Positions 15,873 to 61,709 of a stretch of 64,000 nucleotides of DNA are shown piece after piece. A program made the position numbers and the translations under genes. How positions within the stretch are numbered: the stretch's first letter is position 1; each line of letters opens with the position of its first letter. This DNA comes from Thermobaculum terrenum ATCC BAA-798 (lineage in GTDB: Bacteria > Chloroflexota > Chloroflexia > Thermobaculales > Thermobaculaceae), in the NCBI RefSeq assembly GCF_000025005.1, contig NC_013525.1:372001-436000 (forward strand), read 5' to 3'. The notes below the pieces were generated by a model. It worked only from the letters and a program-made list of their open reading frames with translations, did not search any database and was not told the origin of the DNA.

Positions 15873-15906
15873 GGTATACTTATTGCGTCTAAGCAATAAG
15901 TATACC
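15873..15906. repeat. perfect 14-bp inverted repeat
   Basis: Arms GGTATACTTATTGC and GCAATAAGTATACC flank a 6-base loop (GTCTAA). There is no T run after it, so it is not a standard terminator, though it could end the subtilase transcript. It ends 27 bases before the -35 box of the adhesin promoter and could equally be an operator. Confidence 0.6.
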
Positions 15907-15932: not shown

Positions 15933-15961
15933 TTGACGGATATTAATTGGGTTTATATAAT
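15933..15961 (+). promoter_or_regulatory. strong sigma-A promoter of the Pro/Ser-rich surface protein
   Basis: TTGACG (15933-15938) and a perfect TATAAT (15956-15961) are separated by exactly 17 bases. The predicted start of transcription is near 15968, giving a 5' leader of about 185 bases before the gene at 16153. Confidence 0.85.
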
Positions 15962-15966
15962 TGAAA

Positions 15967-16093
15967 CTGTAGAAACTTTTGCATTAATGCTAAAAGTGTA
16001 AAAGGCGCTAATTAGCGTAGAGGCGACGAAGTCCGCTTACCTATATGGGCACCATGGGAGCGGATGGAGCCACTGGTGCAACCGGCTACTGAG
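15967..16093 (+). ncRNA. structured leader RNA, class II c-di-GMP riboswitch-like
   Basis: The leader contains a stem GCACCA (16049-16054) / TGGTGC (16074-16079) set in the frame GGGCAC...GTGCAACCG. From memory, this is the conserved core of class II c-di-GMP aptamers. At the 5' end, CTGTAG followed by AAAC (15967-15975) can pair with CTACtG at 16086-16091 to form a P1-like helix (GTAG/CTAC plus one further pair). Extra hairpins are present: ACTTTT/AAAAGT at 15975-15997, CGCTAATTAGCG at 16006-16017, and GCGAC-GAA-GTCcGC at about 16023-16036. The P1 3' strand is also the 5' arm of the terminator, so folding of the aptamer would block termination: an ON switch. Against this class, P1 is imperfect and I could not find the usual GGUU partner for AACC. 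Confidence 0.55.
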
Positions 16094-16121
16094 AAGACCC
16101 TCAGTAGCCGGTTCGTTTTTT
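16080..16121 (+). terminator. intrinsic terminator in the leader (attenuator)
   Basis: A perfect 14-bp stem (AACCGGCTACTGAG / CTCAGTAGCCGGTT) with a 6-base loop is followed by CG and six Ts (16116-16121). It lies between the strong promoter and the coding region, so transcription of the surface protein requires read-through. This is the layout of a riboswitch attenuator. Confidence 0.92.
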
Positions 16122-16152: not shown

Positions 16153-17829
16153 ATGACACTGAAAATAAGACAACCGTTTTTAATAACTTGCCTAATTATT
16201 TCTGCACTAGTCTTATCTATGATCGCTCCCACACTCTTTGGTGGTACCACTAGTGCTCATGGCAAGAATCCACCTGGCAACAATGGTACGATCAAAGTCG
16301 ATGGTAGGGATTTTGATGATCATCCGAACAACGAGCCTCACCCGGGTTGTGTATTCCAGATAGACTTTTATGGGTTTGATAAAGGAGATTATTACGCTAC
16401 AGTTACCTTTGAGACGCAGGCGCCTACTGAACCTAAAGATCAGGTAATACTTCAAGATAAAGTGTTCATAGGTGAAGATGACGCTTCGGGAGGGGGATCG
16501 GAGTCTGGCCTGGATGCTTCGGTTAAGTATGATCTATCGCAGTATCTTTCACAGTATGAACCACATTCTAATCAGGGCTACCATATCAAGCTAACTATTC
16601 ATGCCCCCGGGTCTAAGGGCAACGATGTAAAGCACAAGGTTTTTTGGGTGAACTGTAAGCCGGAAAATCCACAGCCAACGCCTACCCCAACGGCAACCCC
16701 TGTTCCATCGCCTTCAGTAAGCCCTAGCCCAACTCCGTTACCAAGTGAATCGCCAACTCCGAGTCCATCAATGAGTCCAACTCCAGTGCCGACACCAAGC
16801 ATAGTCCCATCACCAAGTCCTTCGGAGTCTCCGCTCCCCAGCCCATCTGTGAGCCCTACACCACAGCCGTCTCATAGTCCTGTGCCTTCAGTTAGCCCGT
16901 CTCCGAGCCAGAGTCCGCTACCTAGCCCAAGCAATACTCCAATTCCATCTAACAGCCCATCACCGAGTGTTAGCCCAAGTCCATCACCTTCAACTACACC
17001 AGTACCAAGTCCATCGATATCGCCGATACCAAGCCCTTCACCTTCGGTGGCTCCGACGCCAAGCCCATCACCGACGGCTATACCCAGCCCGTCTCCGAGC
17101 GTGAGTCCTACACCTGTGCCATCTACTAGCCCGTCACCAAGTGTTTCTCCAGTGCCGACACCAAGCCCGTCTACATCTCCAACTCCTAGTCCCTCGGAGA
17201 GTCCGGCGCCTTCGCCTACTCCTGTACCTAGCCCCTCGTTCAGCCCAACACCATCACCTAGTGAGTCACCTGTGCCAACGCCTGTACCATCCGTGTCGCC
17301 TACTCCGTCGCCAAGTACGACTCCATTACCATCTCCGAGTAATAGCCCGAAACCAAGCCCATCACCCTCGGTAATGCCAACGCCGGTGCCAAGTCCATCG
17401 ATTAGCCCACTGCCTAGCCCGGCTCCTTCCGAATCGCCTATGCCAACACCTGTCCCATCACCGAGTCCTTCAGCGACTCCTGTACCGACTCCGCAACCGA
17501 GTCCGAGTCCATCTGAGTTACCTGCTCCATCGGTATCACCAACACCTATTCCATCTTCTGTGCCATCACCACTACCATCACCAAGCCCATCAGGTTCACC
17601 TACACCTATCCCGATGCCTGCTCCAAGCGTGAGTCCTTCGCCCAGTGCGAGTGGTGTACCTGTCCCAGAGGCATCACCAAGCCCGTCTCCAAGCCATATG
17701 CCTACTGTGCCCAGGACTGGTGATGGAGGGATGGCGAGTACTGGCTCTGGGTCTTCCCTGCCAGTAGCAGGCTACTACCTGGGTCTAATATTAGTAGCAA
17801 CCTATATGCTACTAAGGCGCAAGTGGTAG
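16153..17829 (+). CDS. Pro/Ser-rich surface protein with VPRTG sorting signal (putative adhesin)
   Basis: This 558-residue protein starts at ATG behind AAAGGAGGGG. It has a signal peptide (residues 1-35, ending TTSAHG), a compact N-terminal domain at about 40-170 (HPGCVFQIDFYGFDKGDYYA, KVFIGEDDASGGGSESGLDA), and about 340 residues of degenerate P-S-P-x/P-T-P repeats. The C-terminal signal has VPRTG at 519-523, a hydrophobic stretch (GYYLGLILVATYMLL) and RRKW. A sortase would cut in VPRTG and join it to the wall; no sortase is in the window. The stalk is rigid and rich in Ser/Thr for O-glycosylation, and a protein O-mannosyltransferase gene follows. Adhesion is inferred. Expression is probably gated by the leader terminator. 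Confidence 0.88.
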   Translation: MTLKIRQPFLITCLIISALVLSMIAPTLFGGTTSAHGKNPPGNNGTIKVDGRDFDDHPNNEPHPGCVFQIDFYGFDKGDYYATVTFETQAPTEPKDQVILQDKVFIGEDDASGGGSESGLDASVKYDLSQYLSQYEPHSNQGYHIKLTIHAPGSKGNDVKHKVFWVNCKPENPQPTPTPTATPVPSPSVSPSPTPLPSESPTPSPSMSPTPVPTPSIVPSPSPSESPLPSPSVSPTPQPSHSPVPSVSPSPSQSPLPSPSNTPIPSNSPSPSVSPSPSPSTTPVPSPSISPIPSPSPSVAPTPSPSPTAIPSPSPSVSPTPVPSTSPSPSVSPVPTPSPSTSPTPSPSESPAPSPTPVPSPSFSPTPSPSESPVPTPVPSVSPTPSPSTTPLPSPSNSPKPSPSPSVMPTPVPSPSISPLPSPAPSESPMPTPVPSPSPSATPVPTPQPSPSPSELPAPSVSPTPIPSSVPSPLPSPSPSGSPTPIPMPAPSVSPSPSASGVPVPEASPSPSPSHMPTVPRTGDGGMASTGSGSSLPVAGYYLGLILVATYMLLRRKW

Positions 17830-17845
17830 TAAGAGTCTTTGAAGA

Positions 17846-17871
17846 GGGGGGAGATCTTCTGATCTCCCCCC
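17846..17871 (+). terminator. intrinsic terminator after the surface protein gene
   Basis: An 11-bp perfect stem (GGGGGGAGATC / GATCTCCCCCC) with a TTCT loop is followed by TAATTTTCTTT. It closes the surface-protein transcript. Confidence 0.88.
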
Positions 17872-17970
17872 TAATTTTCTTTATCTATTCTTCTATCTTT
17901 ACTTGACGTAGGGATACTATGCCTGTATCTTGCTCTTGTTACCAGCTTGATTTGTGAAGGATCTTTGTTG

Positions 17971-19296
17971 ATGGCAGAGATAGCAGGCAAAGAACTTGTT
18001 GAGAAGAAGGAGTGGAACTCCCTGGCTATAAGAGCTATTCCTCTCTTGCTAATATTGGTTTCCTTTGCTTTTTACTTATACAGGCTTAGTGTGCCTCCTC
18101 AATACATCTACGATGAGGTTTACCATGCCTATACCGCTGCTCAGTATGCTTCTGGTAATACGGATGCCTACTTATGGTACAAGAGAGCTCCAAGAGAGGG
18201 GGTTGCCTACGAGTGGACTCATCCACCACTAGGGAAGCTTCTAATTGCTGATTCTATACTGATCTTTGGTGACAATTCGTTTGGTTGGCGTTTTGCTTCT
18301 GCTGTTTTTGGTGCTATTGGTATTGGTGTTGCTTACTGGCTAGGGTACTCCCTTACCGGCTACATGGTTGTTGGGCTGCTCACGTCTTTCTTGCTACTGT
18401 TTGATGGTATGTACTATGTGCAATCCCGTACTGGGATGGTAGATATATTCCTTGTAGTATTTCTGATGCTTGCCCTTTTGATGGCTTATAAGTACTTGAC
18501 TGCTACCAACGGTAGAACTAGGTACCTGTTCCTGACTGGAGTATTTATAGGTCTGGCAGTATCTACCAAGTGGAATGCTGTCTATGTATATGCGTTCCTG
18601 GGGCTATCGCTGGTAGTTTGTTCGGCATATACCCTGTACAAGAGTAGAGCCCCCGTAAGTAAATGGCTGCTTGAAGCAGGACTACTGTTTGCTTTTATGT
18701 TGCTAGTGCCTGCTGTGTTGTACTTGCTCTCCTATACCCAGTTCTTCCTTAGTGGGAATGGCATAAAGGATTTCTTTAAGCTCCAATATCAGATGTATTA
18801 CTACCACTCGCACCTTAAGGCTACACATAACTATCAATCCAAGTGGTGGGAATGGCCACTAACTCTCAGACCTGTTTGGTACTATGTCAAATACTATCCG
18901 GATGGTCGTATAGCTAACATATATACTAACGGTAATCCCGTAATCTATCTTGCTCTCATACCTGCTGTGCTATGGGCCGCTTCTGACTGGATTGATGAGA
19001 ACTGGAAGGCTCTGCTTATAGTAGTTCTTGGGTTCTTTGGAGCTTGGCTACCTTGGGCGCTTGTTCCAAGGATAGCTTTTGCTTATCACTTCCTGCCATC
19101 AGTACCCTTTGGATGTGTAGCTCTTGCTTACACTATTAGGCAATTCCTCTCAAGAGGGGGGACCTGGAGAACTGCGGCTATATGTTATTGTGTAGCTGTG
19201 GTGGCTATGTTTGTGTTCCTGTTTCCGATATATTCAGCTATCCCACTAACTAGAGCTCAATTCGATATGCGCATACTTATTCCTAGCTGGAGATGA
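17971..19296 (+). CDS. PMT family protein O-mannosyltransferase (GT39)
   Basis: I start at ATG 17971, behind GAAGGATC, giving 441 residues. This multi-spanning enzyme carries the catalytic Asp-Glu pair in YIYDEVYHAYTA in the first external loop and the family segment YEWTHPPLGKLLI, both diagnostic of dolichyl-phosphate-mannose-protein mannosyltransferases, plus MYYVQSRTGMVDIF. Such enzymes move mannose from a polyprenyl phosphate carrier to Ser/Thr of exported proteins at the outer face of the membrane. The gene directly follows the Ser/Thr/Pro-rich surface protein, its obvious candidate substrate. A GT-C-like gene begins 4 bases downstream, so the two form an operon. Confidence 0.93.
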   Translation: MAEIAGKELVEKKEWNSLAIRAIPLLLILVSFAFYLYRLSVPPQYIYDEVYHAYTAAQYASGNTDAYLWYKRAPREGVAYEWTHPPLGKLLIADSILIFGDNSFGWRFASAVFGAIGIGVAYWLGYSLTGYMVVGLLTSFLLLFDGMYYVQSRTGMVDIFLVVFLMLALLMAYKYLTATNGRTRYLFLTGVFIGLAVSTKWNAVYVYAFLGLSLVVCSAYTLYKSRAPVSKWLLEAGLLFAFMLLVPAVLYLLSYTQFFLSGNGIKDFFKLQYQMYYYHSHLKATHNYQSKWWEWPLTLRPVWYYVKYYPDGRIANIYTNGNPVIYLALIPAVLWAASDWIDENWKALLIVVLGFFGAWLPWALVPRIAFAYHFLPSVPFGCVALAYTIRQFLSRGGTWRTAAICYCVAVVAMFVFLFPIYSAIPLTRAQFDMRILIPSWR

Positions 19297-19300
19297 GATA

Positions 19301-21253
19301 TTGCTGGGAGTACTCCTGCTGATTTCCTGCTTGATCCTAGGAATACTAGTACTTTATCTGCTGGTTCCTGGCTTAACGTTTGAAGAACGTATATTTTATG
19401 GTTTTGATCTCGGTGTCATATTGATCTCTATAGCGTGCTTTGTATCAGCAATCTTCTTTGGCTTCAATCTGTTACAGGTTTGTCTGACATCTCTATGTTT
19501 GTTGATAGTCTCTTTTGTGTTGACTTTTTGGCTTAGATCCCAAGTCGCTGCAAGGATCAAAAATGAGCTGCAGGATTTTAGATCTAGGTTGAAGCTTAGA
19601 GAGACTGTTTGGTTTGCTGAGATGCTCCTGGTAATAGGGGTTTTCTTCTTTCACCTGTATTACAATTCCTGGAGACTATACCCGGATGGGTGGTATGCAG
19701 GTCACTCATTTATATGGGGTGATCTACCTATACACACAGGACTTATCGAGAGCTTCGTCGAGATACGTAAATTCCCGCCTCCAAACATATACTTCAGTGG
19801 CACCTTGCTATCTTATCCCTTCATGGCCGATTTCTTTAGCTCGATCCTTATGATCCTGGGCTGGTCCTTGGGGCCCGCATTTGTAATCCCGGGGTTTCTG
19901 CTGGGTATATGTACGGTTGCAGGTATATATTTGCTAGCTCTGCGGATTTCGAGATCCGTTTTTGCCAGCTTATTGACCGTGGTTCTGGTCTTACTGAGTG
20001 GTGGTATGGGGTTCATAGTCTTCTTGGTAGAGGCTAATAGGTCGGGAAACTTCATCCACACACTTCTCAATCTGCCTTCGTACTATACAGGTTTGCGTGA
20101 TTACGCCATGACCTATCCTAATATAGTTCTAGGTTTTTTCCTTCCCCAGAGGCCATTCCTGTTGGCACTTCCTCTCGGTATGTTGATGTTGAGCCTGCTT
20201 TACAGGTTCAGGCTCTCTAGAAGACCTTACGATATGTTGTTAGTAGGTTTGGCATCAGCCCTTCTCCCGCTCGTGCATCCTCACACGCTTGTAACGATTG
20301 GCATAGTGTCGGGTTACCTTGTTGTGGAGTACCTTGTGCTTTCATTCTTGTGTAACGATAAGCAAGGATGCTATAGGGCGTTGTTATCTGGAGTCCTATT
20401 CTCTCTTCCTGTCACGGTAGGGATGCTGCAAGTTCTGTGGCAACTTGGAAACCTTGGAGCTACCAGCAATGGCGGTCTAAGCGTACAAATAACCACTAGG
20501 GCTATAGCAACTGAAAACTATATATGGTACTGGCTCAAAAATGTAGGGCTTTTCCTGCCACTTGCTGGGTTGATTTTTGTGGTGCAGGGCGCTTTGCCAA
20601 ATAGGATAAGGAGTTTCTACGCTCCATTTGCCCTTATATGGTTTATAGCTACTTTGGTAGTAATGCAGCCTTTCGACTGTTGCAATCGCAAGTTGTTGGT
20701 GTATTGGTACTTGGTTTCTGCTGTGGTCATATCTTTGGTACTAGTAAAATTGATCCTTACAGGGGATATAATCTCCAGGTTTCTAGTTGCATTTTTGATA
20801 TTCTTGCTCGTCTTCACGGGCTCCCTGGATCTATTTAGGGCGTCTATTCCTTCTCAATCGAGATATCTTGAATTTAGTAATGAGGATATAGCCTTTGCTA
20901 ACCAAGTCAAGGAGAGGTTGCCTGCTGATGCCGTATACATCACCGCTACCCAGGTACATCATCCTATAACTGACCTTGCTGGGAGGCAAGTGGTACTTGG
21001 CCCACCTTATCTGGCAAATGACTGGGGGTTACCCTGGAGACCCAGGATGGAGGATCTCCAGTTGATATATACAGGATCATCTCGAGCCCAGGACTTGATC
21101 AGAAAATATGGAGCCAGGTACCTAGTCATAGGTCCCACAGAGAGACAACTATTCAGAGTAAACAAACAGTACTACCAGGAAAGATTCCCGGTAGTACTGC
21201 GCTATGGACAGTATACGGTATTTGATGTTAGTTCCGTTTACGGTAGCAGGTAG
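19301..21253 (+). CDS. large multi-pass membrane protein, GT-C glycosyltransferase-like
   Basis: TTG 19301 follows GGAGATGAG by a few bases, right after the mannosyltransferase stop. The 650-residue protein is almost wholly hydrophobic, with roughly a dozen membrane spans. It has an external loop carrying FIWGDLPIHTGLIESF, whose Asp is placed like the catalytic Asp of GT-C enzymes, and a soluble C-terminal domain of about 120 residues (LEFSNEDIAFANQVKERLP, KYGARYLVIG). I do not recognise a named family with certainty. Topology and operon position suggest it acts on lipid-linked sugars together with the mannosyltransferase, for example by extending or supplying the glycan. Confidence 0.75.
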   Translation: MLGVLLLISCLILGILVLYLLVPGLTFEERIFYGFDLGVILISIACFVSAIFFGFNLLQVCLTSLCLLIVSFVLTFWLRSQVAARIKNELQDFRSRLKLRETVWFAEMLLVIGVFFFHLYYNSWRLYPDGWYAGHSFIWGDLPIHTGLIESFVEIRKFPPPNIYFSGTLLSYPFMADFFSSILMILGWSLGPAFVIPGFLLGICTVAGIYLLALRISRSVFASLLTVVLVLLSGGMGFIVFLVEANRSGNFIHTLLNLPSYYTGLRDYAMTYPNIVLGFFLPQRPFLLALPLGMLMLSLLYRFRLSRRPYDMLLVGLASALLPLVHPHTLVTIGIVSGYLVVEYLVLSFLCNDKQGCYRALLSGVLFSLPVTVGMLQVLWQLGNLGATSNGGLSVQITTRAIATENYIWYWLKNVGLFLPLAGLIFVVQGALPNRIRSFYAPFALIWFIATLVVMQPFDCCNRKLLVYWYLVSAVVISLVLVKLILTGDIISRFLVAFLIFLLVFTGSLDLFRASIPSQSRYLEFSNEDIAFANQVKERLPADAVYITATQVHHPITDLAGRQVVLGPPYLANDWGLPWRPRMEDLQLIYTGSSRAQDLIRKYGARYLVIGPTERQLFRVNKQYYQERFPVVLRYGQYTVFDVSSVYGSR

Positions 21254-22507
21254 CTACCGTACGTATCTATAGGCCATCAATTTATAGTCTGGATAAGCCC
21301 CAGAGTCATCTCGTACTGATGCAAGCACGCGATAGTTGTTGTTATCGGCTCTTGGTTCAAAAACTATGCTCCATCTAATAGTTAGCTGATTGCCGGATAG
21401 ACTGACTGTAGTATACCTGGCGTTGATTTGCACGATATTTCCCCTTAGCACTACATCTTTGCCAGGCACTGCACTATATAACACCCCGTTAGAAAGGTCC
21501 TTCATGTAGATCTTGTTCTTGTCCTGGTTGTACCAGATCTTGACGGACCTGTTGTAATAGGAGCTCTGGAACTTGATATAAGCCTTGTTGATATTCTTGG
21601 CTCCATTAGAGTCGTAGTAGGTCGCCGTGAATGAGTAGCTTCTTCCTACGTAACTCGTACCTGTCCCAGGTGTTAGAGAAGTCACGCGAGGCAGGTAGTT
21701 ACTAGATTGCGCAGCGTATAGATACCTAGGGGTGGAAGAAGCCCAGATGCTGGGTTTGACCCCTATGTAAGTGGAGCCATAAGGGACTCTGCCGCTAAGT
21801 ACGTCTGAGAGGAAGACTTGTCCAGCCTCCTCTCGACTGTAACCATAGTCCGAGGCTCGATCTATGTTGGGCATTCTATATCCTAGCTGTTCATAGAAAC
21901 CAGTTACCTGGTGAGTCCACTCGTGAAGAAATATCTGCTCTGGGTAGCGACCAAGCCAGTCTCCGTGCTGTTGAGGGATATTTACGGTTGTGTAACCTGC
22001 TCCATTCGCCCAAGGACCTGGCCTGACAGTCCATCCCCAACCTAGGCTAGGTACTCGCTTGCCGCTATCAGTATCCAACCTCCATATGACGAAGATGCTG
22101 TCGTACCTACCTTGAGGAGCGTACTTGTTGATATCTGCCTTTATGTCCAGGGGCGAAACCCAGAAACCATTCGCACCCAGGGAAGTAACCGATGATATGG
22201 GGTGATCTGGATAGACTATAGTCTGGCTAAGGTATGTGTTGCCTCTGGACCAATTGTAAACCGTAGATGGCACTCTCCTTATGACGTACAGTGCTTTCTG
22301 CAAGTCCGAAGAGGACATAGAGGTCCTCACCCTCTGCGTCTGCCCATTCCAAGTGAAGGTAACATCTGTACTACGATATACCAAGAAAAGTGCCCTCCAA
22401 GTAGTGACAGCTGCCGAGGCTCGATTGATGCTAATTAGCGGAGACAATGTTGTTACCATAAGGCACAAAATCAGAAATACTAGGAGCCTAGGTTTCAATT
22501 TTGTCAT
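21254..22507 (-). CDS. secreted HExxH zinc metallopeptidase under c-di-GMP control
   Basis: This 417-residue exported protein has a signal peptide (LLVFLILCLMVTTLSPLIS, cut near ASA-AV), a novel-looking catalytic region with the zinc motif HEWTH at residues 195-199 (QIFLHEWTHQVTGFYEQLG) and a possible third ligand Glu in SREEAGQ (226/227). An Ig-like C-terminal part begins near 285 (TPGTGTSYVGRSYSFTATY). The family is not one I can name. The gene converges on the GT-C-like gene with no gap and is preceded by a class I c-di-GMP riboswitch. By analogy with PPEP-1/Zmp1 it may cut the nearby Pro-rich adhesin; that substrate is inference. Confidence 0.85.
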   Translation of the reverse strand: MTKLKPRLLVFLILCLMVTTLSPLISINRASAAVTTWRALFLVYRSTDVTFTWNGQTQRVRTSMSSSDLQKALYVIRRVPSTVYNWSRGNTYLSQTIVYPDHPISSVTSLGANGFWVSPLDIKADINKYAPQGRYDSIFVIWRLDTDSGKRVPSLGWGWTVRPGPWANGAGYTTVNIPQQHGDWLGRYPEQIFLHEWTHQVTGFYEQLGYRMPNIDRASDYGYSREEAGQVFLSDVLSGRVPYGSTYIGVKPSIWASSTPRYLYAAQSSNYLPRVTSLTPGTGTSYVGRSYSFTATYYDSNGAKNINKAYIKFQSSYYNRSVKIWYNQDKNKIYMKDLSNGVLYSAVPGKDVVLRGNIVQINARYTTVSLSGNQLTIRWSIVFEPRADNNNYRVLASVRDDSGAYPDYKLMAYRYVR

Positions 22508-22518
22508 ATCTTGTATGT

Positions 22519-22558
22519 CCTCCCATAGGGTGATTAGGGAGGCACTGGTCAGCCTCCC
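22519..22558 (-). promoter_or_regulatory. riboswitch expression platform (sequestor/anti-sequestor of the ribosome site)
   Basis: Reading the minus strand, GCCTCCC (plus 22537-22543) can pair either with GGGAGGC just upstream (plus 22552-22558) or with GGGAGG at the ribosome site (plus 22519-22524). The upstream partner overlaps CTGGG, the 3' strand of aptamer helix P1. Ligand binding would stabilise P1, free GCCTCCC to cover the ribosome site and stop translation. Without ligand the site is open. This predicts a translational OFF switch. The ribosome site is 11 bases from the ATG. Confidence 0.7.
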
Positions 22559-22633
22559 AGGCAGCCCGGCTGACTCTTAGAGTCCCGTGGCTTTGCGTCC
22601 CCATCTCACGACGGGTTTGCCCTTTTCTGGGTC
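22556..22633 (-). ncRNA. class I cyclic di-GMP riboswitch (GEMM-I) aptamer
   Basis: On the minus strand the RNA contains the three conserved GEMM-I blocks in order: GGGCAAACC, GGGGACGCAAAGCC and CCGGGCUGCC. Between the first two lies a hairpin capped by the GNRA tetraloop GUGA, as required for docking onto the second arm. The second arm ends in the hairpin GACUC-UAA-GAGUC. Helix P1 is CCCAG (22627-22631) with CUGGG (22556-22560). The match is essentially complete. It lies in the leader of the secreted metallopeptidase, 48 bases ahead of its start. Confidence 0.94.
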
Positions 22634-61525: not shown

Positions 61526-61577
61526 CAATCCGCTACCTATCAGGAGTATCGACTTATGCGATACACCTAGCTATAGC

Positions 61578-61693
61578 GGCCTTCTCCCATCCGGACTCTT
61601 ACCGTCGGCCCTGGAATCTCACCAGGTCCACCCCTGTTGCAGGGGGTCGCGGGCTCTACCGCCGGTCGGGAATTGCACCCTGCCCCGAAGGCC
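61578..61693 (-). ncRNA. FMN riboswitch (RFN element)
   Basis: On the minus strand the RNA has the RFN blocks in order: GGCCTTCGGGGCAGGGTG, CAATTCCCGACCGGCGG, TAGAGCCCGCGA, GACCTGGTGAGATTCCAG, GGCCGACGGTAAGAGTCCGG and ATGGGAGAAGGCC. P1 is GGCCTTC (61687-61693) with GAAGGCC (61578-61584). The match is essentially complete. It controls ribX-ribY. Confidence 0.97.
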
Positions 61694-61709
61694 TTATTTA
61701 TCCACTAAG

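Follow-up and report, generated by a model that had tools for sequence, protein, structure and literature searches.

A class II c-di-GMP riboswitch of Thermobaculum terrenum and the convergent class I riboswitch that faces it

In Thermobaculum terrenum ATCC BAA-798, the leader at positions 15967-16121 of the stretch of DNA analysed here (the window, 64,000 nucleotides in full) is almost certainly a class II c-di-GMP riboswitch of the known type, switching ON, and it probably represents, as a transcriptional switch, one half of an opposed pair whose other half is a convergent class I translational OFF switch. Taken alone, the class II riboswitch is a routine member of its family, and the point of interest is the convergent, opposed pairing. 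Both aptamers, the competing structures in both leaders and the repetition of the convergent arrangement in related genomes were found by computation, and the features on which the analysis is based are collected in Table 1. A search of the open literature retrieved nothing relevant joining c-di-GMP-II riboswitches with the Chloroflexi, nor on the pairing of class I with class II.

The host is a non-motile bacterium with a growth optimum of 67 °C and two chromosomes of 2,026,947 and 1,074,634 bases (PMC3035366). Its genome encodes six GGDEF and two EAL domains, the c-di-GMP enzyme domains, as well as one sortase, and the leader under study is its sole class II site.

Table 1. Features of the class II locus and of the class I locus facing it (positions in the window)
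Feature	Position	Strand	Basis or remark
Promoter-like TTGACG-17-TATAAT	15933..15961	+	11/12 consensus matches; position fits leader start
Extra 5' hairpin ACUUUUGCAUUAAUGCUAAAAGU	15974..15998	+	predicted fold only
Class II c-di-GMP aptamer	16010..16096	+	RF01786 61.4 bits, covariation; P1 16017-16020/16086-16089, P2 16022-16024/16069-16071, P3 16031-16038/16058-16065
Pseudoknot, P3 loop with 3' core	GCACC 16049-16053 with GGUGC 16075-16079	+	5/5 pairs
Intrinsic terminator, 14 pairs, then CGUUUUUU	16080..16121	+	5' arm is core AACCGG plus P1 3' strand
Exported 558 aa protein, class II-regulated gene (predicted)	16153..17829	+	sequence; ~30 bases past terminator
Terminator-like hairpin 3' of surface-protein gene	17845..17872	+	sequence scan
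Protein O-mannosyltransferase family protein (PMT)	17947..19296	+	PF02366/PF16192
Large membrane protein, without Pfam family	19301..21253	+	putatively glycosyltransferase-like, from neighbourhood
Secreted 417 aa HExxH (HEWTH) protein, C-terminal Ig-like domain	21254..22507	–	sequence, alignment, predicted structure
Shine-Dalgarno GGGAGG	22519..22524	–	sequence
Anti-Shine-Dalgarno GCCUCCC	22537..22543	–	pairs with GGGAGGC or with Shine-Dalgarno
Anti-anti-Shine-Dalgarno GGGAGGC	22552..22558	–	overlaps class I P1 3' strand
Class I c-di-GMP aptamer, GGC type (c-di-GMP-I-GGC)	22556..22630	–	RF03167 75.1 bits, cut-off 59

The class II leader and its expression platform

The initial annotation had proposed a divergent class II c-di-GMP riboswitch with the core GGGCAC...GTGCAACCG, and of this proposal the class and the core are borne out, the core lying at 16047-16084 and the RF01786 model matching the leader above its gathering cut-off of 53.5 bits (E 3e-11), end to end through all 84 model positions. 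Folding of the leader is far better than that of its shuffles (z –5.8; 0 of 200 as good), and standard pairs fill P2 (3/3) and P3 (8/8). The same annotation had seen no partner for a pseudoknot, a statement that has to be withdrawn, as the P3 loop pairs completely with the 3' part of the core. When the window site was aligned with 29 others of class II from the phylum, the pseudoknot was paired in all 30 leaders, with changes on both sides in four of its five pairs, and the covariation score of the whole structure reached 0.545, whereas shuffles gave 0.17 and slid structures 0.07-0.13. Given the Rfam match, the site is probably present already in automatic annotation.

The extra hairpins and the imperfect P1 that had been pointed out are both found, the former as predicted folds, the latter as four contiguous inner pairs plus two outer ones among the 11 pairs of the model. 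In pseudoknot-free folding without ligand the class II P1 never forms, and in the predicted fold the core UGCAA is an alternative partner for UUGCA of the extra 5' hairpin. The short P1 and the preceding hairpins are the sole unusual points of the leader and are treated here as variation within the RF01786 family, because the outer P1 is weakly kept among the aligned relatives too. A structural variant or a new class, as had been suggested, is thus not what the data describe, with a match above the curated cut-off, a pseudoknot in place and an unusual P1 alone; the Rfam score together with the pseudoknot rules out a new riboswitch class. It is likewise highly improbable that a structural variant binds another cyclic dinucleotide or some other ligand: the short P1 and the extra 5' hairpins would fit such a reading, but nothing departs from the standard in the conserved core positions or in the pseudoknot, the full model scores above the curated cut-off and c-di-GMP enzyme domains are present in the genome. 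Judged by sequence, this leader and the class I leader described below are both expected to bind c-di-GMP.

The terminator pairs 16080-16093 with 16100-16113 (–25.4 kcal/mol), CGTTTTTT comes next, and predicted folding of the free window leader gives it a probability of 0.96 at 37 °C and of 0.93 at 67 °C. Since its 5' arm is made of the core AACCGG and of the P1 3' strand, aptamer and terminator are mutually exclusive. In 27 of the 30 class II leaders compared within the phylum the terminator begins in the core AACCG, and the direction is therefore taken as ON, in agreement with the overlap of P1 strand and terminator from which an ON switch had been proposed at the outset. We infer the ON state, as folding without ligand and pseudoknot cannot display it. 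Among the exceptions to this layout, one leader (L032) has a second aptamer at the point in question.

Could the hairpin be a constitutive attenuator, or simply serve the upstream subtilase gene as terminator, with no switch involved? A strong terminator does stand between two same-strand genes, but the promoter-like site separates the subtilase gene from the leader and the aptamer, with its covarying pseudoknot, is fused directly to the terminator as in the other leaders of the 27/30 group, which leaves this explanation scarcely credible. The leader is thus read as a class II ON riboswitch, which shares with RF01786 P2, P3, the pseudoknot, the core and the predicted ON platform with its terminator on the core, and differs by a P1 of four contiguous pairs, the added 5' hairpin and the thermophilic Chloroflexota host. 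In the gap that separates the subtilase gene from the leader promoter there is also a perfect 13-bp inverted repeat, GGTATACTTATTG...CAATAAGTATACC (15873-15906), without a T run, a possible operator.

The class I leader and the two target genes

The class I riboswitch lies about 6.5 kb from the class II leader and is convergent with the class II locus. Between its aptamer and the start codon there is a three-way arrangement in which the anti-Shine-Dalgarno can pair on either side, found by chance in 9 of 5000 shuffles. In predicted folding of free RNA, for transcripts ending near the start codon, GGGAGGC:GCCUCCC is mostly kept, and the Shine-Dalgarno is unpaired at a level of 0.33-0.37 at 37 °C, against 0.00 with P1 formed, with the same direction at 67 °C; this free (ON) state is a modest one that varies with the transcript end: one end loses it at 37 °C, and the longest transcript shows it weakly at 67 °C. 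As there is no U run 3' of the aptamer, the platform is taken as translational and OFF, and the folding models make it fairly likely that the class I leader is an OFF switch in this window. T. terrenum has a second class I aptamer (L108 4611-4685; G000 C2:961111-961185), 5' of an exported 1201-aa protein; this aptamer has AAAAAGGCAAAC in place of the AAAAGGGCAAAC of the window copy. Relatives that bind cGAMP are marked by an A at that position, and the ligand of the second aptamer may differ. The window also holds an FMN riboswitch (61575-61696, minus strand, 117 bits).

The protein encoded downstream of the class II leader begins with a signal-type N terminus, continues with an orphan domain and a long Pro/Ser/Thr-rich stalk and ends with VPRTG or LPVAG as putative sorting motif, a hydrophobic stretch and RRKW (VPRTG...LPVAG-hydrophobic-RRKW). 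This tail looks sortase-type from its sequence, and the NCBIfam sorting-domain match is weak. The protein matched no Pfam family and had no relatives, and so no orthologous leaders, in the 158 other genomes of the bacterial class that were searched; no relation could be detected between its N-terminal domain and the sortase-type protein that class II controls in genome G390. The gene is followed by a terminator-like hairpin and by a second promoter-like site at 17903, which suggests that the mannosyltransferase gene and the gene next to it form a separate unit outside class II control. From their position, one may guess that they modify the stalk of the surface protein.

The HExxH protein, whose gene follows the class I leader, belongs to no family of Pfam or NCBIfam. 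A scan of bacterial genomes found 39 relatives of its first domain, mainly in Chloroflexota and Verrucomicrobiota. HExxH is invariant in an alignment of 38 sequences (H163, E164, H167, D203 and others are unchanged, in mature-fragment numbering), but the Gly and the His/Asp that the metzincin motif HExxHxxGxxH/D would require are not conserved in it. For the predicted structure of the first domain (pLDDT 93.6, pTM 0.91), Foldseek alone gave weaker results (best E 2e-3), and in a second-look alignment the best 50 PDB neighbours all had the metzincin fold (adamalysins, ADAM, TACE, ADAMTS; Z 9.8-11.1 over 169-186 residues). The enzyme thus shares with adamalysin/ADAM metzincins the predicted fold of the catalytic domain and the HExxH helix, whereas it is 6-12% identical to them and lacks the extended zinc motif. 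Because the strict motif is absent, the predicted fold is called metzincin-like, short of metzincin. The relatives form a HEWxHxV family (L043-L081) that Pfam does not list; its members come from Chloroflexota, Verrucomicrobiota, Bacillota and others and often lack a signal peptide. In the loci of 25 relatives elsewhere no riboswitch above threshold was found nearby. The C-terminal Ig-like domain recurs in three copies in another T. terrenum protein, an open frame of 1146 aa (L085).

Proposed mechanism and comparison with Clostridioides difficile

According to the mechanism that we propose, without ligand the 14-bp terminator would capture the P1 3' strand and the core AACC and transcription would end before the gene at 16153, while with c-di-GMP bound the pseudoknotted class II aptamer would keep those bases, no terminator would form and the surface protein would be made. 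On the class I leader (22630-22508), c-di-GMP would let P1 take the anti-anti-Shine-Dalgarno bases and the Shine-Dalgarno of the HExxH gene would be sealed. At high c-di-GMP the cell would then produce the surface protein but not the enzyme, and at low c-di-GMP the enzyme would be made and synthesis of the surface protein would stop. Ligand-driven switching of both leaders is what the structural models point to.

A circuit of this kind is known in Clostridioides difficile, where the adhesins CD2831 and CD3246 are under class II control (ON) and the protease PPEP-1/Zmp1, which cleaves both of them and cuts at Pro-Pro motifs, is under class I control (OFF) (PMC6366702, PMC11477304). The ON direction of the C. 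difficile class II switches (PMC6366702) is the one predicted for the window leader, and the window shares with the CD2831/PPEP-1 system a predicted class II ON switch on a surface protein, in the window one with a putative sortase-type tail, and a predicted class I OFF switch on a secreted metalloprotease-like protein; the Pro-rich stalk of the surface protein recalls the Pro-Pro cutting of PPEP-1. The differences are also clear. The class I platform of C. difficile acts by transcription termination, whereas that of the window is predicted to be translational; the two window genes are convergent, with the mannosyltransferase genes between them; and the window enzyme, unlike PPEP-1, has no Pfam family and a predicted metzincin-like fold. 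By sequence it shows no link to PPEP-1 in Pfam, a search of PDB sequences by profile retrieved no protease, and known PPEP structures are absent among the structural neighbours listed for the enzyme domain, a result still compatible with kinship. By analogy, the HExxH enzyme may cleave the surface protein, and a full make-and-cut module in the window is a possibility to which we give slightly less than even weight.

Convergent class I and class II sites in the Chloroflexia

Class II riboswitches occur in 102 of 400 genomes of the phylum and class I riboswitches in 89, and comparison of the two genome tables shows that class I is present as well in 52 of the 102 genomes with class II. The initial annotation had called the presence of both classes 6.5 kb apart rare; this holds for the short distance, which is uncommon, and not for co-occurrence in the same genome. 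For 45 class I loci of the same bacterial class (31 genomes with any match, a few of the weakest sites left out), up to 20 kb on each side was searched with a model built from the 30 class II sites. Eight class II sites were found near class I, at five loci in five genomes, and in all five the class II site is downstream of class I and convergent with it, with 6.6 to 15.2 kb between outer ends. The 525 kb searched upstream contained none (498 kb were searched downstream). If one assumes, generously, one class II site per megabase, 0.5 nearby loci would be expected against the five observed; three of the five genomes share one genus, so that the independent cases are three, and the statistics are softened further as the arrangement in the window, G341 and G385 had been noticed before the scan.

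The four pairs outside the window set an exopolysaccharide operon against the gene of a secreted enzyme of the beta-helix, pectate-lyase-like type. In G341, the operon is of exopolysaccharide type, has tandem class II sites on its 5' side and starts with a sugar transferase (PF02397); it runs head-on into a class I-controlled gene whose exported product is a beta-helix protein resembling pectate lyase (PF12708, PF13229). Homologues arranged in this way are present in G466 and G467, and in G385 the layout extends over 15 kb. Folding showed no clear change in Shine-Dalgarno accessibility for the class I leaders of G341, G385 and G359, and for this reason an OFF direction is left unclaimed there. 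Elsewhere, class II sites precede a sortase-type LPKTG protein (G390) and a Pro/Thr-rich surface protein (G174), and surface proteins are therefore regular class II targets in this group.

These pairs bear on the simplest alternative, that an ordinary class II ON riboswitch controls the surface protein, with the class I riboswitch close by through coincidence and the HExxH protein unrelated to it. Class II is indeed common in the phylum, about half of the genomes that have it also hold class I, and with an orphan surface protein a conserved pairing of the two proteins cannot be shown; yet nearby pairs are five where up to 0.5 were expected, every one is convergent and downstream, and the product of the second gene is in each of them secreted and hydrolase-like. 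Coincidence is thus unlikely, although it keeps some weight, and the opposed pair is preferred. The broader reading is a tentative one, with chances a little below even: at matrix loci of the Chloroflexia, convergent unrelated riboswitches would act as class II ON switch for a surface polymer (protein or exopolysaccharide) and as class I OFF switch for a secreted enzyme cutting the same polymer; this logic would have an origin separate from that of C. difficile CD2831/PPEP-1 and would use another enzyme family.

If this is true, a single second messenger runs attachment and detachment of the surface layer at the RNA level through two non-homologous RNA classes, and the adhesin/protease circuit of C. 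difficile is one instance of a wider design. Testable roles would be offered for the orphan surface protein, for the Pfam-less HEWxH family of Chloroflexota, Verrucomicrobiota and others, and for the secreted beta-helix enzymes beside exopolysaccharide operons.

Some further sites were recorded. Tandem class II riboswitches, with one aptamer each, precede the exopolysaccharide operon at L107 (770-1019), and likewise in G466 and G467. In one genus, class I sites lie 5' of exported CAP-domain proteins (PF00188) with LGFP-like repeats, which replace the beta-helix enzymes (L110 2489-3526, L111 2384-3469). Outside the class, G210 has class I and class II 4.3 kb apart on the same short contig, with the target genes at or beyond the contig ends. 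Class II riboswitches are also found 5' of Flp/TadE-type pilus genes in G295 and G365 (L098, L102).
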